Assembly: GCA_019118885.1 (NCBI GenBank)
Contig: DWYB01000054.1
Span: 1 to 36,979 of the forward strand
Direction: 5' to 3'
Source of the DNA: Candidatus Mediterraneibacter surreyensis
Lineage (GTDB): Bacteria > Bacillota > Clostridia > Lachnospirales > Lachnospiraceae
DNA length: 36,979 nucleotides
This document shows positions 10,401 to 26,294 of the stretch, in pieces (the stretch's first letter is position 1; every line of letters starts with the position of its first letter). Made by a program: the position numbers and the translations under genes. Below the pieces are notes generated by a model. It worked only from the letters and a program-made list of their open reading frames with translations. It was not told where the DNA came from and searched no databases.

Positions 10401-13400
10401 TCACTCTACGGTGACGCTGATCACGTTGGATTCCTGTCCGAAGGTGATCTTTCCATCCACATCCGTATAAGCAGCGACTTTGAAATAATACGTCTTTCCG
10501 CTTTCCAGATCTGATTTCGTGTAAGAAACGGTATCGCCGCTGTTGATCATTTTGGCAACCGTATAGTCGCCGTCTTCGCTCTCAGCCATCCAGATACGAT
10601 ATCCGTCTGCTCCTGCGACAGCTTCCCATGCAAGATTTGCACGTCCTGCGCCTGCAGCAGTTCCGGCAAGAGTCGTTGCTTCTGACAGAGTTGCGATCGT
10701 CATCTCATCGGTATACGCGCTGTACACCAGTGTTCCATCCTCTTTGATCGTGACTGCACGCATCTTGTAGGTGTAGGTCTCACCTGGCGTCAGATCCACG
10801 TTGCTGTAAGCGGTGATCGCCTGGTCTTTGATAACCTTTACGATCTTATACTCACTGTCATCCGCGCCGGCATCTTTTCTCCACAACTGGTATTCTGTCG
10901 CGCCGTCTACCGGCTGCCATACAAAACGGATACGGGTCGGGAGATTGCTGTATGCATTGTCTACTACAATCGATGACGGCATATAGTCAACTGCTGAGAA
11001 TTCCGAGAAGATTTCTTTGTCTCCCTTATACGCGCGGACTTTGTAGTAGTAGGTCTGTCCGACTGTCAGTCCTGTATTGGTATACTGAACGGTTTCCGGA
11101 TCTGTGATCGTCTTTGTCAGCGCCCAGTCTTCCTCTGCAGCGTCCGAGCTGGTTGCACGCCACAGTTCATATCCGTCTGCGTTTTCCACCTGATTCCAGG
11201 TAACCTTTGCGCTTGTCTGCACTCTGCTGTATACAGACTCGATTTCCGGAGCCACCAGGGCATTCGGATCAAGTTCCCCGCACTTGGTACATTTGCCGTT
11301 CACATAATTGTGATCTCCAGCTTCCCAGGTAGTTGTTGTGCTTACGGAATATGCATGGCCTTCCGCTTCGCCTTCCGCCGTATACGTAGATGTCACGCCT
11401 TCTGCACAGGTACCCTCTGCACTGGTCAGCGATGCCTCTGCAGTTACGGCTGCTTCAAGCGCCGCGCTGATGGTTGCATCATTCATCAGCAGATCAAGAG
11501 TTTCTTTTCTTTCATTGCATACAGAAGAGCATACAAGATTGGAGAATGTTACGGAAGAGAAATCCTCACTCCACTGCGGGTCAGCGGCTGTATAGGTATG
11601 GCCTGCCGTCGCTACCGCCTCATCATAGATTGCCTTATCCTCTTCATACTGTGCCAGCAGTTCCTGATATTCTTCCTCGGTGACATAAGAATTCTGCTTC
11701 GGCTCTGTCGGCTCAGCGATATGGAATCCGCAGACTGCGCATACATAAGTATCGCCGCTGTTCCAGTTTTCATTCTCATCCTTGGTATAGTACTCTTCTG
11801 AGAACAGAATGTAATGATGTCCGTCGTATGCGGAATCTTCATCCACTACACGGCTTTCCGCCTCAATCGCTCCGCAGGTCGTGCAGCGGTCTTCTGTGAA
11901 ACCGTCGCGTCCGCAGTAAGGATCAACCGTTACTGTGCTGTACTCATGCGTGTCGCCGGCAAAATGAGCCATATCCAGGGTTTCTGTCGCATTTGCAACC
12001 CACATAAACTCAGCATTGTCATTGATCTCACGCTTATACCCCAGCTGTTCCAGCATATCGTCGGAGATTCCCTGATCCTCCATCATCTGAGCGGCAAACT
12101 CATTGTAATCCGGATTATAGTTGCTCTCCTCGAATTCATATCCGTAGCTGGACGAATCCGTGTAGTCATGTGGATCTCTTCCTGCAATATAGGACAGGTT
12201 CGTAGCAATATCCACATAAAGTGTTCCGTCGCCTTTGAGCGTCATACCTGCGATCGGATGATTCTCAAAAATGAATTCCGGCTCTTCTGCGCTGTTGTCC
12301 ACATCGAAGCCCATAGCGCCGAACACTTCTGTTTTGTCTCTTACAACATTAACTGTGTTATATTCTTTTACTTCGGCAACTGCACCGGTAGCAAGATCAT
12401 AACTCAGAATACTGTTGGAAACATTGAAATACAGCTTTTCTCCATACAGAACCGGAGTCGTATGGATCGCCGGATATACGGACTGTTCTTCCACAAAGTT
12501 TGCGTACAGTTCTGTCAGCATCTCATTCGCTTCCATCTCGCCTGTTTCCGGATTGTAAACCGTTACAGAATCACCAGAATTGAAGTCGATCAATGTCTCA
12601 TAATCGGTATCTCCGTCGCCAAGATCCGTGTCTGTCATTTTATGGCGCACGATCTTATAGACAGCGTCTTCAATATCCATCTCCTGGTAATTTCCCTGAC
12701 TGTTGTTGAACTCTCTCAGCATCTCCAGCAGATCGGTGGAATCATACATATAATAGATATATTCGCCGTCGGAGTATACGTTGCTGACAACACGGGTCAC
12801 CCAGCTGCCTTCGTAATCACTGCTTGTATAATCTTCATTCACTGTAGTGCCATCGCAGTCTGCATACAGCGTCTTGATTTCGGAATAATTTCCGTCAAAC
12901 ATCTCTGCGAGAGAAGAATGGCTGATCATGAAATATGTATGGTTCATATAACCGTTCGTTTCCACACGGTCGCGATTCATAACCTCTGAGAATACGTCTG
13001 TATAACAGGGATCCACATAGTACCACTTGCCGTCAATCTTTACCGCATTCCAGAAGTGATCGGAACTGAAATCCGGCTGCGGTTCGCCATACATGCTTAC
13101 GCTTGCGTTGAAGGTGATTCTTACAAGATCGACATTGTAATTCTGGCTGATGTCCAGATTGCCGTTTTCATCATAGTAAAGATCTGCCGCTGTCTTCCAG
13201 TTAGAAGCAACATTGATATCTGTCGCACCGTCTTTTAGGTAGATTTCCGGATACATGCACTGCATTAGGTATGCAAATGCCTTTGCGTATCCCATACATA
13301 CAGATTTTCCTTCTGCAAGGGCACCGATGTGGTTTCCTTCCCAATATCCGAGGATACCATCGGTCAGTCCGGCTGCCGCCTGCTGGGTATAAACATCAAT

Positions 13401-14777
13401 CGCCTGATTCGGAGTCATATTTCCAAGATCCGGGATCTGGGTATCCATGATCTGCGTATACGCACTCTCTACCGCTGCCTGTCCTTCTTCAGACGCAAGA
13501 TAGCCGTTTACCTGTGTCTCCATCTGTGCGGCAACCTCTTCTCCGCCCAGATTGCTTACAACATATGCGCGCGGATCCGCTGCAATCGCCTCGGCATTAT
13601 CTGTCATATACTGTTTCGCATAAGCGCTGACCTCTTCCTCTGTTGCATCAGGATTCTCTGCCTGATACTGCTGTGCTACAGCGTTCTGGATTGCATTCTG
13701 CCAAATGGCAAGTCCAACCTGCTGTTCCGCCACTGTACGGAACTGGCTCTGAAACTGTGCCTCGATCTGCGGACGGTACACTGCTTCCATTGCAGCGTAA
13801 ATCTCATCATAATGCTCGTTCTGCTGCGGATCTTCCGCCGTCATGACCGGCTCGTCGCCCATCTGGTTCATGATATAGGACATATCAAACGTGTTGTTCT
13901 GAGACAGCCAGGTGTTCAGCGCCATGATCTTCTGAACGTCCGTCTGCGCTCCGGAGTTATTTACTGCCTCCAGCGCTTCATCTCTCTTTGTACGGATCAT
14001 TTCTCCGTAGTACTCAATGCCGAACTGATCCCCGTACAGGAAGTTCATGATCATACCGGTCAGGTCGTCATAGGAATAATTTCCGCTTCTTACATCCTCA
14101 ACGGAAACGCCTGCCAGAGTAAGCATCTCGCCGAGTACGCCCAGACCGTCTTCTCCGTTGTCATTGAACTGAAGATAGAACGGACTCTGTACGCCGAGCA
14201 CGTCGGCATTGTCCTGCCACTGCTGCTGGTACTCACTGTACATACCCAGAACTGTCTGGATCTGCTCCTCCGTCAGCGGAACGGATTCTCCGTCCGCGTT
14301 GAGGACCTTGATGTTCTGCAGTTCTTCCTTGATCGTGGCGATCTCCGGATCACTCTCGTCAACAGAATTCAGTTCCTCTTCCGTCAGCTGCATCTCGTTG
14401 ACGTTGATCTCCGGCGCCTCGATTTTGGACGCATCGATCGTGAAAGTGGAAAGGCTGTCGTTGATCGTGATCGTTGTGTCCTGTGCCTGTTCCGCCGGCT
14501 CTGCAGTTTCCTGAGGAACTTCTGTGTTTTCCTGCGTTTCTTCCGTTGTTTCCGGAGCCGAAACCGCTGGATCCTGCTGTGTCTCTTCTGCTGTTTCCGG
14601 CGTTGCTTCGCTGCCCTGCTCTTCCGTTGCCTCCGGCACTGCAGCGTTTTCCTGCTCTGAAACCACCGGAGCCGCAGCGTTATCAGGGACAGTCGCAAAC
14701 ACCGGCGTCGCCATGAGACTCAGGGTCATCGGAACTGTGATAAACAGACTCAGAAATCGCTTTGAGTTTCTCTTCAT
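10401..14777 (-). CDS. Very large secreted transglutaminase-like protein with His/CxxC modules and FN3 triplet
   Basis: This is a protein of about 1458 residues. It begins with a signal peptide (KRNSKRFLSLFITVP onwards, cleavage near VFA), then a Glu/Thr/Gln/Pro-rich linker and a long acidic region. A transglutaminase-like core carries Cys494 (GKSVCMGYAKAF), His574 (SDHFWNAV) and Asp589 (YYVDPCYTD), all present and in order. Four Cys-bearing segments follow at about residues 960-1180: CGRDG...CTTCG, CAVCG, CSSVC and CTKCG. Each follows a His-x-Tyr or His-Tyr element, as in His/CxxCG repeats of clostridial surface proteins. The C-terminus holds three FN3-like modules paralogous to those of the protein at 2637. 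No LPXTG or SLH anchor is visible. The ATG at 14777 has AAGGAG 9 bases upstream; the frame opens at a TTG at 14807. The substrate is unknown. Its position at the head of block A suggests a role at the glycan-coated surface. Confidence 0.85.
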   Translation of the reverse strand: MKRNSKRFLSLFITVPMTLSLMATPVFATVPDNAAAPVVSEQENAAVPEATEEQGSEATPETAEETQQDPAVSAPETTEETQENTEVPQETAEPAEQAQDTTITINDSLSTFTIDASKIEAPEINVNEMQLTEEELNSVDESDPEIATIKEELQNIKVLNADGESVPLTEEQIQTVLGMYSEYQQQWQDNADVLGVQSPFYLQFNDNGEDGLGVLGEMLTLAGVSVEDVRSGNYSYDDLTGMIMNFLYGDQFGIEYYGEMIRTKRDEALEAVNNSGAQTDVQKIMALNTWLSQNNTFDMSYIMNQMGDEPVMTAEDPQQNEHYDEIYAAMEAVYRPQIEAQFQSQFRTVAEQQVGLAIWQNAIQNAVAQQYQAENPDATEEEVSAYAKQYMTDNAEAIAADPRAYVVSNLGGEEVAAQMETQVNGYLASEEGQAAVESAYTQIMDTQIPDLGNMTPNQAIDVYTQQAAAGLTDGILGYWEGNHIGALAEGKSVCMGYAKAFAYLMQCMYPEIYLKDGATDINVASNWKTAADLYYDENGNLDISQNYNVDLVRITFNASVSMYGEPQPDFSSDHFWNAVKIDGKWYYVDPCYTDVFSEVMNRDRVETNGYMNHTYFMISHSSLAEMFDGNYSEIKTLYADCDGTTVNEDYTSSDYEGSWVTRVVSNVYSDGEYIYYMYDSTDLLEMLREFNNSQGNYQEMDIEDAVYKIVRHKMTDTDLGDGDTDYETLIDFNSGDSVTVYNPETGEMEANEMLTELYANFVEEQSVYPAIHTTPVLYGEKLYFNVSNSILSYDLATGAVAEVKEYNTVNVVRDKTEVFGAMGFDVDNSAEEPEFIFENHPIAGMTLKGDGTLYVDIATNLSYIAGRDPHDYTDSSSYGYEFEESNYNPDYNEFAAQMMEDQGISDDMLEQLGYKREINDNAEFMWVANATETLDMAHFAGDTHEYSTVTVDPYCGRDGFTEDRCTTCGAIEAESRVVDEDSAYDGHHYILFSEEYYTKDENENWNSGDTYVCAVCGFHIAEPTEPKQNSYVTEEEYQELLAQYEEDKAIYDEAVATAGHTYTAADPQWSEDFSSVTFSNLVCSSVCNERKETLDLLMNDATISAALEAAVTAEASLTSAEGTCAEGVTSTYTAEGEAEGHAYSVSTTTTWEAGDHNYVNGKCTKCGELDPNALVAPEIESVYSRVQTSAKVTWNQVENADGYELWRATSSDAAEEDWALTKTITDPETVQYTNTGLTVGQTYYYKVRAYKGDKEIFSEFSAVDYMPSSIVVDNAYSNLPTRIRFVWQPVDGATEYQLWRKDAGADDSEYKIVKVIKDQAITAYSNVDLTPGETYTYKMRAVTIKEDGTLVYSAYTDEMTIATLSEATTLAGTAAGAGRANLAWEAVAGADGYRIWMAESEDGDYTVAKMINSGDTVSYTKSDLESGKTYYFKVAAYTDVDGKITFGQESNVISVTVE

Positions 14778-14996
14778 TTTCACATACTCCTTCCATTGAA
14801 ATATCAAAATCAGTAGGCCTTCTTGTCACCTATACATGCTGCCGAATATACAGCGGTCCCGCTGACTGAACTGCTGTCAAATATCCCGTAATACCCACCG
14901 CATAAACTAAGAGGCATACTAACGTAAGAATACCACCAAACGTACAAAATAGCAAGCAATACCTAAGCAAATTTTATAAGAATTCATGTCCTAAAT
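14778..14996 (-). promoter_or_regulatory. Spacer upstream of the large secreted-protein gene
   Basis: This 219-base gap lies between the acyl carrier protein stop and the ATG at 14777, and is the likely place for a block A promoter. I see a TTGACA at 14880-14875, but no -10 box at a normal distance. A perfect 6-bp inverted repeat CAGCGG-TC-CCGCTG (14851-14864) lies between it and an AT-rich TATATT. This could be an operator or simply a small hairpin. No U-tract terminator follows the carrier-protein gene, so readthrough from block B is possible. Confidence 0.35.
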
Positions 14997-15236
14997 TCAG
15001 TCCAAAATTCCGCCGACAAGGCGGCACAAATCTCCCGCTGTACGTATTTCCCTCAGAGAAGCTGCCGGAATGGTGATTCCGAATTCTTCCTCAAGATCAC
15101 ACAGCATAACGTACACTTCCACCGAAGCAAGCCCCATGTCTTCATACAGCAGGGTATCCTCCGAAATTTCTTCCTCTGTTTCGGTTGACTCCCGAATGAC
15201 TTCAAATACCCTCTTCCTGATCATTTCCTCTTTCAT
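14997..15236 (-). CDS. Acyl carrier protein (phosphopantetheine carrier)
   Basis: This is a small acidic four-helix carrier of about 79 residues. The prosthetic-group attachment motif is DMGLASVEV with Ser38, which replaces the usual DSL by LAS but keeps the Ser and following hydrophobic/acidic pattern. LCDLEEEFGITIPA is the typical helix-II end and loop. The ATG at 15236 is favoured because AAGGGGTGA lies 8 bases upstream, overlapping the stop of the ligase gene; a GTG at 15248 is possible. It directly follows an AMP-dependent acyl ligase and an acyltransferase-3 gene. It therefore probably carries the acyl or aminoacyl group activated by that ligase rather than serving bulk fatty-acid synthesis. 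It is not obviously DltC. Confidence 0.85.
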   Translation of the reverse strand: MKEEMIRKRVFEVIRESTETEEEISEDTLLYEDMGLASVEVYVMLCDLEEEFGITIPAASLREIRTAGDLCRLVGGILD

Positions 15237-15244
15237 CCTGCCGT

Positions 15245-16723
15245 TCACCCCTTTCCGTATCGTATCAGTTTTCCCATACTCGTTTTATCGATCGGTTCTT
15301 CCAGAAAATGGATCACCTGGATCTGACTGTACACCGGCACCGACCTGTTATATTCTGCAATCTCTTCCCGGATCTTTTGCCGGATCTGTTCAGCTTCTTT
15401 GGCCGTGCACTCTGCGGGATATCTCGGGAAAACGGATACCGCGATCAGATCCCCTTCCGCTTTCACAAGAGCCTCGCCGATCTCTTCCCAGCGGTACAAT
15501 TTCTTTTCAATGGCTTCGGGACTGATATTTTCCCCGTTGGACAGTATAATAAGATTCTTTTTCCGTCCGGTCAGGTACAGATATCCTTCTTCGTCCATCC
15601 GGCACAGATCCCCGGTTGCATACCAGCCTTCGCGCAGCACTTTCCCGGTTCCCTCTTCATCGTCGTAATATCCCATCATCAAAGACTCGCTGCGGAGATA
15701 TAATTCGCCGCCAGCTATTTTCACATCCAGGCCGGCCGGCGGTTTTCCGATCGTATCCGGACGTTCCTCTGTCATTTCCCACAGAAATCCGATCGCCCCT
15801 GCCTCGGACGCTCCATATCCCTGCAGCACCGTAATATCATGTTCCAGAAAAATCCGAAGGAATTCCGGACGAAAATCCGCTCCGCCGCAGTTGAGCAGAT
15901 GCAGGTTCCATCCCAGAAGTCTTCCGTTGGGGCCGCCGTTTTTTATCTTTCGCGCCAGCATCCGCAGCATAGACGGTACGATAAATACATAATCCGGCTG
16001 CAGTTCTTTCAGATACTGGTAGAAATACTTCTGTTCTTCACCGATACATACCTCCGCTCCCAGAAACAGCGCATTCAAAGACGAGGAAAAACCCGAAAGG
16101 TGATGAAAGGGGAGAACAGCCAGGATGGAATGAAATTTTTTGTCATTGATATTATGACAGATTCCCGCGGACAGGCCATGCTCCGACATCATGACTGCTT
16201 TGCTGGTCGCCGTTGTGCCGGAAGTAAAAAAAATGCATCCAAGATCCTCTCCTCTTTTTCGAACCTTTTTTTTACTTTCCCTGCCGGATCTGCAGGTTTC
16301 CCTGACCTTTTCAAACGACAGGATTTTCACACGTTCCTCAAGCGCTCTGCAGCGCTCTTCCACTTCCGGCGCTCTTTCAAAAAAAAGCGCCTCCGCTTCC
16401 ACTCTTCCGACTCTCTCTTTCAGTTCCTCTTCATCCAGTTCACGATCCAGAAGCACCGCTACCGATCCGGACCAGAACACTGCACATAGGCAGACCATCC
16501 ACCAATAACTGTTCCGTCCCATGAGCCCAATATGTTTTCCTGACAGACCCGTATCTTCTATCAGAAAAGCAGTCCGGCGAATGTCTGAAAAAAACTGTTC
16601 ACAAGAAATATCTGTGACACCCAAATCGCTCATAAACCGGAAGACACGCCGCCCCGCCAACCGCCCTTCCAGCTGTTCCAGCACCTCCCGCATTGTCTCT
16701 GCTCTCTGCATCTCATCCTTCAT
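15245..16723 (-). CDS. AMP-dependent acyl ligase (acyl-ACP/CoA synthetase family)
   Basis: This ANL-superfamily adenylating enzyme has about 492 residues. The A3 P-loop is TSGTTATSK at 167-175. YGASEAGAIGF is the A5 acyl-binding motif. YATGDLCRMDEEGYLYLTGR is A7/A8 with the hinge RKK. The A10 catalytic lysine is Lys485 in KTSMGKLIRY. All catalytic parts are present, so it should adenylate a carboxylate and load it as a thioester, most likely onto the carrier protein encoded immediately downstream. The ATG at 16723 has AAAGGTGA 8 bases upstream; a GTG at 16735 is the longer alternative. The gene lies 31 bases after an acyltransferase-3 gene. The acid (fatty, hydroxy or amino acid) cannot be told from the sequence. 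Confidence 0.88.
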   Translation of the reverse strand: MKDEMQRAETMREVLEQLEGRLAGRRVFRFMSDLGVTDISCEQFFSDIRRTAFLIEDTGLSGKHIGLMGRNSYWWMVCLCAVFWSGSVAVLLDRELDEEELKERVGRVEAEALFFERAPEVEERCRALEERVKILSFEKVRETCRSGRESKKKVRKRGEDLGCIFFTSGTTATSKAVMMSEHGLSAGICHNINDKKFHSILAVLPFHHLSGFSSSLNALFLGAEVCIGEEQKYFYQYLKELQPDYVFIVPSMLRMLARKIKNGGPNGRLLGWNLHLLNCGGADFRPEFLRIFLEHDITVLQGYGASEAGAIGFLWEMTEERPDTIGKPPAGLDVKIAGGELYLRSESLMMGYYDDEEGTGKVLREGWYATGDLCRMDEEGYLYLTGRKKNLIILSNGENISPEAIEKKLYRWEEIGEALVKAEGDLIAVSVFPRYPAECTAKEAEQIRQKIREEIAEYNRSVPVYSQIQVIHFLEEPIDKTSMGKLIRYGKG

Positions 16724-16754
16724 ACGATCTTTCACCTTTTCTTTTTTCTGACTG

Positions 16755-17825
16755 TTACAATCCTGCGCCGCGCAGTTTTTTCCTTTTTAATTTCCCGGCT
16801 GCCCAAAAAACAAGTTTGTAGATCAGGTACATCACCGCGCACCGGCCCAGAAAACAGATTCCTACGCCCAGCCACGGATACCCGGAAAAGAGTCCTGCCA
16901 CCCGATACCACGGAAAAATGATTTTTTCATACGCATGGAAACAGACAATCCAGATGGAATGAAATCCGACTTCCTCAAGAAATCCCGTCAATTTTCCGTG
17001 AGGTTCACGCCGCATAAACGCCGCATAGATCCTAAGAATCAAAAAGCCTGCGCAAAAAGAACCTGCCACGTCCAGAAGACCGAGTCTCCACTCACACGCT
17101 ACAATGTTCACTCTTCCAAACGCACTGGTAATGAGAAAAACTGCCAGGATAGCAGTCCAGGCTTCCCATGAAATCTTCTTTTGCAGCAAATTCCTTTTCC
17201 GCATATAGTCTCCGACCGCCAGATATCCGACCGCCAGAAGTCCCATGGGCAGACAATACGGCCATACATGAGAAATCAACGTCAGAACATATCCTGCAGC
17301 CACACAACATACCACACAGAAAACCTGCAGTCTCTGCGATTTCAGGCCCGTAATGCCGTTATATAGAACCCATCCCTCAAAAAGTGCCAGAACAAACCAG
17401 AAAATGCTCACAGACTCCACCGGTATCCCCAGGATCTCTCCGCCGCCTTCTGCGTTCAGTCCAAGCAGATAGGTGAACACCAGTTCTCCGCCGTGCTTCC
17501 AAAAGGAACGCCGCTCCACAACGGCAAGCGCCAGTTTCGTCACCAGAACTGCGGCTGCCACACGAATGTACGGGCGAAGCAAAAGTTTTCTCTGTATGGA
17601 GAAACACTTCCGGAAACTTCTTCTGAAAAATCCGAATCCGCTGATCATGAAAAAAGCCGCCATGATCCCACCGCCCACAACGCTCCCCATTCCGGAAAAA
17701 ATGCCTGTCTTTTCTTCCATCCGGTACAGATTCATGGTATGTCCGAGTATGATCAGAAACATTCCCAGGCCTCTTGCCAAATTAAAATATCCCAGGCTCA
17801 ATCCCTTTTTCTGCTCACCCTTCAT
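16755..17825 (-). CDS. Acyltransferase-3 family membrane protein (glycan O-acyltransferase type)
   Basis: This 356-residue protein has about 10 membrane segments. The N-terminal LSLGYFNLARGLGMFLIIL followed by GHT matches the acyltransferase-3/fucose-4-O-acetylase type, with the conserved first-helix Arg and catalytic-type His. FHSIWIVCFHAYEKIIFPWYR is a typical late membrane/loop segment. Family members transfer acetyl or other acyl groups to sugars across the membrane. The ATG at 17825 has AGGAG 6 bases upstream and overlaps the flippase gene end by 11 bases. Placed directly upstream of an acyl ligase and a carrier protein, it is the obvious candidate to use their thioester, although most family members use acetyl-CoA. 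The acceptor is presumably the block B glycan. Confidence 0.85.
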   Translation of the reverse strand: MKGEQKKGLSLGYFNLARGLGMFLIILGHTMNLYRMEEKTGIFSGMGSVVGGGIMAAFFMISGFGFFRRSFRKCFSIQRKLLLRPYIRVAAAVLVTKLALAVVERRSFWKHGGELVFTYLLGLNAEGGGEILGIPVESVSIFWFVLALFEGWVLYNGITGLKSQRLQVFCVVCCVAAGYVLTLISHVWPYCLPMGLLAVGYLAVGDYMRKRNLLQKKISWEAWTAILAVFLITSAFGRVNIVACEWRLGLLDVAGSFCAGFLILRIYAAFMRREPHGKLTGFLEEVGFHSIWIVCFHAYEKIIFPWYRVAGLFSGYPWLGVGICFLGRCAVMYLIYKLVFWAAGKLKRKKLRGAGL

Positions 17826-24824: not shown

Positions 24825-26294
24825 TCAGAGCTTATCGTTCTCCACAATACCATTCAATACATGTTCTACATTGGCGATGATCTCCATTTTGTCAGTGATC
24901 AGCTTCTCGTTGTTCTCCCAGCATAACTCAAACATTCTTTCAAATGCCTCTTTCATATCCATACGGTTGATCACAAACATATTATTGTATTCACCACTCA
25001 GGCGCAGATGTGAAACCGTATCGTTGAGAAAAATGCACTGACCGGTACAGTACTCGATATCCGAGATCAGTCTTCCAGAAACCATCCGGATTTCTATCTC
25101 TTTACGGTTTCTGCACAATTCCAAAAAATACTGTATGCACGATGTAACCTGACTCTTTGTCAGGCGAACTTTATAGTTATAAAAGTCAATGTTATTATCC
25201 ACCACAAGATCATAGATCGCGGTTCGGTATATTAGAATCCTGATATATGATCCCTCTATGATCTTTTTGGTCATTCGGTGAATTTTTCTCAGTTCAGGAA
25301 TATTCAAGATGCCTTCGTCAGCCTTTTCTCTCAACTCCTCAACAATCTCATTAAAAATATTTTCCGGCAGAAAATGCTCAGTAAAATGTCCGATTACCCA
25401 CTTCTGTTTCAAAGCAAGCATCGCATGAACATACATGTGATTTTCAAGTATCTCCCGCATGGTAACTCTGCGGAACAGCAAATGATCTCGGTTACAAAAT
25501 CCCATCAGATTGCGATACAACGCATGACAAATATCTGCATCCTCGCTGACAACCACCGAAATGCACCGGTCCTCACTCACCAGAAACCCAGACATTGCAT
25601 AATCGTCTTTCACCACAAAAATACTTCTACCCGCCGCCTGAGAGCATTCATATAACCGCAAATCAATACAACTGTTTCTCTCCAGCATATTTACCAGATA
25701 GATAACATCATATACGTAGTGCAGCCGATTCGGCTGCATATTGACTAAAACAGAATAATGTACTTCCTGATACCATTTCCCCGTGGGTACATGTTTGTTT
25801 TTATCTTCGGCGATCTGCAACTGATACTCCCTCTCCATCGAGAAAATGTCCATGCACGCCACTATATCAAGGCCACTGACACGGCGCAAAACAGGATGAT
25901 GCATCCTGGATATGTACTGTGAAAGCTTCAATTCCGGAAAAAAGAGCGTTTTGGGAACGATCTCCACTCCCGAACTGTCCTGAAACTCTCTGACATAAAA
26001 ATATTCCGCTTCCAGATGGTCCAGAATTGCCTGCTTCAATTCTTCGCAGGTAACTACCTGATAATCTGCCTGCAATCTTTTTTGGGCGTCTTCTCCGCAT
26101 CCGTTTACTACGCATTCACTGATACCCTTTAAAATCTTTTTTTCATTTTTTTCCGAGGGAATCATCTGACCGCTTGTCCACTTACTAATATAAGAAACAT
26201 CATACTGCAGTTCCTGAGCAAGTGTATAGTTTTTGACATCTGCCACCGACATTAAGTGTTTCAGCAGTTTACTGAATCTGTTTTTCTCTGCCAT
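24825..26294 (-). CDS. XRE-type helix-turn-helix regulator with a large C-terminal sensory region
   Basis: This is a 489-residue protein. The N-terminal 60 residues form a helix-turn-helix (NYTLAQELQYDVSYISKWTS, then GQMIPS), typical of XRE-like regulators. The remaining 420 or so residues are mixed alpha/beta without membrane segments or a motif that I can name. The region about 120-330 may be a ligand- or effector-binding domain. The ATG at 26294 has AGGAG 12 bases upstream. The gene lies upstream of and codirectional with the AMP-binding gene, so it is the likely regulator of that gene, of itself, or of block C. Repeated AAAAAGTGAA sites in its own leader are candidate operators. The target is inference. 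Confidence 0.75.
   Translation of the reverse strand: MAEKNRFSKLLKHLMSVADVKNYTLAQELQYDVSYISKWTSGQMIPSEKNEKKILKGISECVVNGCGEDAQKRLQADYQVVTCEELKQAILDHLEAEYFYVREFQDSSGVEIVPKTLFFPELKLSQYISRMHHPVLRRVSGLDIVACMDIFSMEREYQLQIAEDKNKHVPTGKWYQEVHYSVLVNMQPNRLHYVYDVIYLVNMLERNSCIDLRLYECSQAAGRSIFVVKDDYAMSGFLVSEDRCISVVVSEDADICHALYRNLMGFCNRDHLLFRRVTMREILENHMYVHAMLALKQKWVIGHFTEHFLPENIFNEIVEELREKADEGILNIPELRKIHRMTKKIIEGSYIRILIYRTAIYDLVVDNNIDFYNYKVRLTKSQVTSCIQYFLELCRNRKEIEIRMVSGRLISDIEYCTGQCIFLNDTVSHLRLSGEYNNMFVINRMDMKEAFERMFELCWENNEKLITDKMEIIANVEHVLNGIVENDKL

Follow-up and report, generated by a model that had tools for sequence, protein, structure and literature searches.

Four head-to-tail genes on the minus strand of a Mediterraneibacter glycan operon encode a flippase, a membrane acyltransferase of the acyltransferase-3 family (AT3; PF01757), an AMP-forming acyl ligase and a small acyl carrier protein (ACP). 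They lie in a 36,979-nucleotide (nt) stretch of contig DWYB01000054.1 from Candidatus Mediterraneibacter surreyensis, hereafter the window; L and G numbers denote the loci and genomes compared with it. The flippase gene stands directly upstream of the AT3 gene and shares 11 nt with it, 19 nt separate the AT3 and ligase genes, and the ligase and carrier genes overlap by 4 nt. A sequence-only reading of this DNA had described AT3, ligase and carrier as consecutive, packed genes behind a flippase, and profile searches bear this out, placing all three products above Pfam gathering scores (Table 1). PF01757 was the sole Pfam family matched by the AT3 protein, and the C-terminal part of the ligase matched PF23562 (31.1 bits; gathering cut-off 20.8).

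The residues expected of an active pathway, which the same reading had pointed out, are all present: S172, G173 and K179 in what we take to be the P-loop of the ligase, K489 as its presumed A10 lysine, and Ser42 as the attachment site of the carrier. With its PF00501 match, K179 and K489, the ligase has the full set of features of an ANL acyl ligase. The carrier has a net charge of -11; its length of 79 amino acids (aa), as first reported, holds from a later ATG but becomes 83 aa from the GTG start. Profile scores, conserved residues and recurrence ruled out a misannotation of these three genes, which we call the cassette. In the open-access literature searched, we found no earlier report of an AT3-ligase-carrier set.

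Table 1 Features of the window and, in the last three rows, fused ligase chains at other loci (locus coordinates).
Feature	Position	Strand	Evidence or remark
AT3 membrane acyltransferase, 356 aa, stand-alone without SGNH domain	16755..17825	-	PF01757 41.9 bits (cut-off 31)
Arg18 codon, first residue of R/K-x10-H	17772..17774	-	R or K in 20/21 cassette AT3 rows
His29 codon, histidine of R/K-x10-H	17739..17741	-	21/21 cassette AT3 rows
Gln78 codon, column of first RxxR Arg	17592..17594	-	K/R in 0/21 cassette rows
AMP-forming acyl ligase (ANL superfamily), 496 aa, GTG start	15245..16735	-	PF00501 153.5 bits (cut-off 29.9)
ATP-binding P-loop TSGTTATSK, residues 171-179	16199..16225	-	S172, G173, K179 invariant in 18 aligned ligases
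Lys489 codon, A10 catalytic lysine	15269..15271	-	near-invariant (at least 90%) in 18-row ligase alignment
Dedicated acyl carrier protein, 83 aa from GTG, 79 aa from later ATG	14997..15248	-	PF00550 33.5 bits (cut-off 20.8)
Ser42 codon, predicted phosphopantetheine attachment site (GLASVE)	15123..15125	-	invariant in 14/14 aligned cassette carriers
Wzx-type flippase, 488 aa	17815..19281	-	PF01943 82.9 bits
Surface-type protein, 1468 aa, fibronectin III match	10401-14807	-	3' of carrier gene
Second AMP-binding protein, 589 aa	22900-24669	-	upstream end of glycan operon
Protein with weak helix-turn-helix (HTH) match	24825-26294	-	adjoins second AMP-binding protein
Fused ligase/PP-binding/Condensation chain	L045 6167-9784
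Fused ligase/PP-binding/Condensation chain	L046 6684-10289
Fused ligase/PP-binding/Condensation chain	L047 3825-7430

The cassette recurs in several gene orders

Conserved co-occurrence had been set as the test of a functional link, and the triplet recurs in congeners and in other genera. Our genome searches scored only some candidates per genome, and presence counts are lower bounds. A close ligase (60-63% identity) was found in 5 of the 57 congeners searched, all five of which carry AT3, ligase and carrier in the order of the window, with the flippase gene upstream and the gene of a large surface-type protein downstream. Species with this operon include Mediterraneibacter catenae SW178, M. 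guildfordensis and M. stercoripullorum. The same gene order occurs in two metagenome-assembled genomes (MAGs) named Blautia (L142 and L149), the former without the large surface protein. At L143 and L150, which we counted among the 21 cassette AT3 rows described below, AT3 and ligase are followed by a contig edge, so that any carrier would lie beyond the contig end. The flippase is the next gene upstream of AT3 in the five close congeners and at L142, L143, L149 and L150.

A sixth congener (G042) carries a divergent set in another glycan locus (L049), ordered AT3-SGNH-ACP-polytopic open reading frame (ORF)-ligase. Its AT3 scores 27.9 bits with PF01757, under the gathering score of 31, and the polytopic ORF has no Pfam match. 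One phmmer query with the SGNH protein, by which a remote SGNH could be missed, gave no match in the window and matched only L049 itself among 17 cassette loci, and we set aside an SGNH partner as a general part of the cassette.

Searching 392 genomes of the order with an AT3 profile matched 14, nine of which have a carrier near the AT3 (G000, G019, G421, G364, G290, G426, G218, G178 and G415). Gene order varies among the cassettes: AT3-ligase-ACP in the window, L031-L035, L142 and L149; AT3-ligase-ACP-AT3 in L099 and L101; AT3-AT3-ligase-ACP in L100; AT3-ACP-ligase in L104; and AT3-ligase-ACP beside an ABC exporter in L106. In L099, L100 and L101 a single ligase and a single carrier accompany a pair of AT3 genes, which would fit one acyl supply shared between two acceptor sites. 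All cassettes seen fall in one family, Lachnospiraceae by their named members. A sample of 398 genomes of the phylum returned only the window's own genome and G594. We rejected spread beyond the family, as the 16-kb contig of the G594 AT3 showed neither a ligase nor a carrier and this AT3 has Lys in place of the first RxxR Arg.

Other AT3 genes of the same genomes served as a control. Eleven genomes hold 107 AT3 places (E up to 1e-10), of which 12 are cassette members, each with a carrier close by. Near the other 95, the flanks read (~1.5-2.5 kb, less where a contig ended) showed no carrier ORF. These 95 comprise 30 places read with 1.5-kb flanks (two of them shorter than the rest), L105 with wider flanks, and 64 in 63 regions with ~2.5-kb flanks (of which one AT3 had a flank of only ~1.3 kb). 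All 15 cassette carriers tested were recovered by the carrier profile, as was a fatty-acid-type ACP outside its building set. Nor was a carrier seen within 1.5 kb of any of 22 sister AT3s, some flanks ending at a contig edge; at one, L111, a carrier ORF lies ~6 kb away. The L111 row is the AT3 ORF adjoining the profile match rather than the matched ORF itself, and L168 and L178, which gave no ORF, were left out of the AT3 rows.

Cassette AT3s form one lineage with an altered motif

In a tree of 41 AT3s, the 21 cassette (carrier- or ligase-linked) proteins occupy one side of a single branch (support 100/98), and they do so again, with the same support, in a tree that includes the 22 sister and 6 background AT3s. 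Beside them in this second tree stands the G594 AT3, which showed no carrier.

Two motifs, R/K-x10-H and RxxR, are described in passages of two AT3 papers as conserved and essential (PMC9558356, PMC9833829), and part of the latter suggests that conserved cytoplasmic Arg residues meet the acetyl-CoA donor. The cassette AT3s differ from other AT3s at the second motif. At the column of the first RxxR Arg they have Gln (19), Leu (1) or Thr (1), whereas Lys or Arg occupies this column in 20 of 22 sister and 25 of 28 background AT3s, that is, 45 of 50 non-cassette rows. Fisher's exact test for 0/21 against 45/50 gives 1e-13, a value to be read in the light of the relatedness of the rows. The column is also basic in 57 of 62 further background rows, some of them fragments, from a set in which the profile picked out no AT3 ORF in 7 of the 63 regions. 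The window protein has Gln78 and Leu81 at the two RxxR positions and so lacks the motif of the cytoplasmic face of transmembrane helix 3. We class it as an AT3 on its profile match and R/K-x10-H motif, and the non-basic RxxR sets it apart. The correspondence of this column to OafB Arg71 was made by motif, OafB being absent from the alignment.

A structure model of the AT3 protein consists mainly of long helices (predicted local distance difference test score, pLDDT, 82.7), with Gln78 near the start of the third. Solved structures gave neither a sequence match at E 1 nor a Foldseek match at E 0.001. A separate variation on the family occurs at L161 (1498-3510, G282), where a 670-aa protein has two tandem AT3 domains, seen as two profile matches in one open frame.

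The carrier and ligase are distinct from housekeeping and Dlt proteins

In all 16 cassettes read, the residue before the attachment Ser is Ala (as in the window), Ser or Thr rather than the Asp of the DSL motif, which distinguishes cassette carriers from fatty-acid ACP. The NCBIfam acyl_carrier model gives the cassette carrier 37.7 bits (cut-off 70.45), as against 89 bits for the other ACP of the genome, which has DSL. On this score and the missing DSL, we rejected an identification as the fatty-acid-synthase ACP. The DltC model gives 20.9 bits (cut-off 68).

The genome searched is 90% complete. Its PF00550 matches are two carriers, that of the cassette and a GADSL ACP whose gene is flanked by a fatty-acid-synthesis gene (PF02504) and one for ribonuclease III. 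Its PF00501 matches are four ligases: the cassette ligase, a second ligase in the window and two with a C-terminal PF14535 domain, one of which, scored against NCBIfam, fits PaaK best but under its cut-off. One phosphopantetheinyl transferase was found. This genome thus showed no carrier beyond the cassette and fatty-acid-type proteins and no DltA-type ligase, and accordingly we detected no DltA/DltC pair.

The description of the ligase as a fatty-acyl type in the sequence-only reading is approximate and not established. Of the NCBIfam models, MenE fits it best (180 bits; cut-off 330), followed by one for a long-chain-fatty-acid ligase (167 bits; cut-off 476), and on these sub-threshold scores we rejected a MenE or FadD assignment. 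An amino-acid adenylation model gives 99.7 bits (cut-off 317), and no DltA model appears among the best 25 of 96 NCBIfam matches. Among the 60 solved structures listed, the best relatives by sequence are aryl-CoA, acyl-CoA and acyl-ACP ligases and luciferases, with nonribosomal peptide synthetase (NRPS) chains only near the end; MenE, 4-coumarate, FadD13 and acyl-ACP ligases are among the relatives. A structure model of the ligase likewise resembles acyl- and aryl-CoA ligases and acyl-ACP synthetases, the class to which AasS belongs. With the acyl-ACP synthetases (PDB 8i8d, 8jyl, 8hsy) it shares the fold and the predicted ability to charge a carrier, but only ~19-20% identity in structural alignment.

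More distant ligases bear on carrier charging. Three chains of ~1,200 aa (L045, L046 and L047) fuse a ligase ~32-33% identical to that of the window to PP-binding and Condensation domains. That ligases of the cassette kind charge carriers is strongly supported, because relatives are fused to a PP-binding domain. Each fusion in itself amounts to a minimal enzyme of the NRPS-like kind, and an ABC transporter gene lies in its vicinity.

A related ligase group in the genus occurs beside a carrier ORF in all 11 annotated loci, which also have an adjoining Condensation protein by phmmer (PF00668 in the three scanned with Pfam: L036, L041 and L048). The arrangement of Condensation-domain protein, free carrier and ligase lies at 7570-11850 of L036 and likewise at L037-L044, L048 and L050, and an alpha/beta hydrolase adjoins it in 10 of the 11. 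These L036-type loci are an uncharacterised small acyl-condensation pathway of many congeners, and we found no ligase of this type in the genome of the window. We therefore rejected the 31-33%-identity ligase relatives of many congeners as members of the same system, since the 11 annotated loci pair them with a Condensation protein and carrier, not with an AT3.

A proposed carrier-fed route and its alternatives

We consider it likely, from the genomic pattern, that the cassette acylates an exported glycan through an AT3 that takes its acyl groups from a carrier. A Dlt-like route in which a carrier thioester supplies the AT3 had been suggested from the start, and it gains support from an AT3 subfamily that tracks the carrier, from loss of the basic RxxR residue and from ligase-carrier fusions. 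In the proposed sequence of events, the ligase would adenylate a carboxylic acid with ATP and move it to the phosphopantetheine arm of its own carrier. The acyl-carrier would then dock at the cytoplasmic mouth of the AT3, where CoA would dock in ordinary AT3 enzymes, and the AT3 core, its R/K-x10-H intact, would carry the acyl group across the membrane. Finally, the acyl group would be esterified to a hydroxyl group on the glycan that the adjacent flippase exports; in the L049 variant, a separate SGNH protein probably performs this last transfer. We infer that the carrier is loaded and passes its cargo to the AT3, and we likewise infer the acceptor and the acyl group. The kinship of the ligase favours a fatty, branched or aryl acid as the cargo, probably in place of an amino acid or acetate. 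With slightly more reserve, we favour the view that this AT3 lineage gave up acyl-CoA as its donor in favour of a dedicated acyl-carrier, with the first basic RxxR residue lost in the process, and that the cell thereby adds an acid not kept as a free CoA ester.

Several observations weigh against this proposal. Five of the 14 genomes matched in the order (G054, G153, G337, G388 and G443) have the AT3 without an adjacent carrier. L102 showed no ligase within ~24.5 kb, and at L103, an AT3-ACP pair, two ligases lie ~3-5 kb away. L100, L102, L103 and L104 stand outside recognisable glycan operons (neighbours include GAPDH and a permease, the rest judged by eye), and their acceptor may differ. The RxxR change is one event on one branch, kept since, so the 21 rows are not independent; the second RxxR position is basic in only 5 of 22 sister AT3s; and the L106 AT3 lacks both R/K18 and the Gln. 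The cassette ligases are not resolved as one clade in the ligase tree, for which reason we rejected that tree as proof of co-evolution. The proposal also runs counter to the stated view of AT3 donors, because a review argues, in the sections consulted, for acyl-CoA rather than ACP (PMC9558356).

That view underlies a rival account, in which the ligase makes acyl-CoA, the AT3 uses it in the ordinary way and the carrier serves another enzyme or buffers acyl groups. Passages of the same review give acyl-CoA as the donor of the named AT3 enzymes (PMC9558356), the nearest curated models of the ligase are CoA ligases, and column 80, two positions on from the altered residue, remains basic in 19 of 21 cassette AT3s, which also counts against the carrier-fed proposal. 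Yet carrier and AT3 stay together despite altered gene order, carrier presence maps onto a single AT3 lineage that in no row has a basic first RxxR residue, and fusions to carriers occur among the relatives of the ligase; we judge an ordinary acyl-CoA route unlikely. A Dlt-like transfer through the AT3 but with an amino acid as cargo would follow the two characterised carrier-fed envelope routes, Dlt with D-alanine and Alm with glycine, as parts of the published accounts describe them (PMC12148441, PMC12930378). The ligase, however, fits MenE and FadD-type models better than amino-acid adenylation, and its top solved relatives are of the aryl, acyl and luciferase kinds given above, which leaves amino-acid cargo quite unlikely.

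Ligase and carrier might instead feed another, soluble acyltransferase acting on a lipid or sugar precursor, with the AT3 separate. Related ligase-carrier pairs adjoin Condensation-domain proteins in the same genus, and the cassettes at L100 and L102-L104 outside glycan operons would suit such an arrangement, but one phmmer query with the L036 Condensation protein matched no window ORF and the partner common to the cassettes is the AT3. We regard this account as very unlikely. The patchy distribution of the cassette, with the close form in five congeners and the divergent form in G042, could reflect chance or hitch-hiking of three unrelated genes in one glycan operon. This is barely credible, because the triplet recurs, reordered, in other genera, whereas none of the 95 other AT3 places showed a nearby carrier. 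The carrier-fed AT3 route is the reading that we retain.

Comparison with known acylation systems

DltABCD, which D-alanylates teichoic acid, resembles the cassette in having an adenylating ligase, a small dedicated carrier, a membrane transferase and an extracytoplasmic acyl ester. The transferase of Dlt is the MBOAT protein DltB, whereas that of the cassette is an AT3, and the two folds differ according to text in PMC9833829. The cassette ligase is moreover of acyl/aryl type, and neither D-alanine-specific protein of Dlt is matched: the cassette carrier falls below the DltC cut-off, and DltA is missing from the best 25 of 96 models for the ligase. As set out in part of PMC12148441, the membrane enzyme of Dlt takes a carrier thioester and PatA takes acetyl-CoA, both being MBOAT proteins, while OatA is an AT3 that uses acetyl-CoA. 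By analogy, the cassette looks like the missing fourth combination, AT3 with a carrier, beside MBOAT-CoA (PatA), MBOAT-carrier (Dlt) and AT3-CoA (OatA). Carrier-fed envelope acylation is already known, and it is the belief on AT3 donors that could possibly change. Dlt also has an SGNH protein, DltD; the single phmmer query with the L049 SGNH protein gave no match among the window ORFs.

AlmEFG is, like the cassette, a Dlt-like route with a different transferase, AlmG belonging to another acyltransferase family. Passages of PMC12930378 describe a Vibrio cholerae ligase that loads a carrier, which feeds the acyltransferase that places glycine onto lipid A; cargo and acceptor thus differ from those proposed here. 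A proven parallel for the change of donor comes from sphingolipid synthesis in Rhodobacteria, where, in the passages seen of PMC9386255, AasR loads only its own AcpR, which feeds serine palmitoyltransferase. There a CoA-synthetase-like ligase and a dedicated carrier supply an enzyme class usually defined by acyl-CoA use, as those passages present it, but the acceptor is serine, no acyl group crosses a membrane and no AT3 takes part. The same passages group the Vibrio harveyi acyl-ACP synthetase with enzymes that charge the housekeeping ACP (PMC9386255), unlike the cassette ligase, whose dedicated carrier is encoded next door. The stand-alone or SGNH-linked AT3s Oac, OafB, OatA and ExoZ share PF01757 with the cassette AT3, whose window copy lies in a glycan locus. 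It differs from them in its ligase and carrier partners and its non-basic first RxxR residue, these named enzymes being outside our alignment.

Donor binding by AT3 enzymes and the movement of the acyl group across the membrane are presented as an open question in parts of two papers (PMC9558356, PMC9833829). If it takes its acyl groups from a carrier, this AT3 subfamily with its altered RxxR would be a natural experiment, and the prediction is that the first RxxR residue contributes to the selection of CoA; a protein donor could also hold an AT3 enzyme for structural work. If the proposal is true, surface glycans of gut Lachnospiraceae would bear an acyl group with possible effects on recognition by the immune system, on phages and on colonisation of the mucosa.

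Neighbouring genes

The 1468-aa surface-type protein encoded after the carrier gene, an arrangement common to the five close congeners, may serve display or remodelling of the glycan. In all nine relatives with the operon (L031-L035, L142, L143, L149 and L150), a polytopic, polymerase-like ORF without a Pfam family match lies between a Stealth gene and the flippase gene. It is absent from the corresponding junction of the window (19281/19282), and no window ORF matches it. At the upstream end of the operon, the second AMP-binding protein of the window shows no A10 Lys in the 18-row ligase alignment. This protein is kept at the same end of the operon in three MAGs (L142, L143 and L149), and in G016 it is duplicated around the HTH gene (L157).

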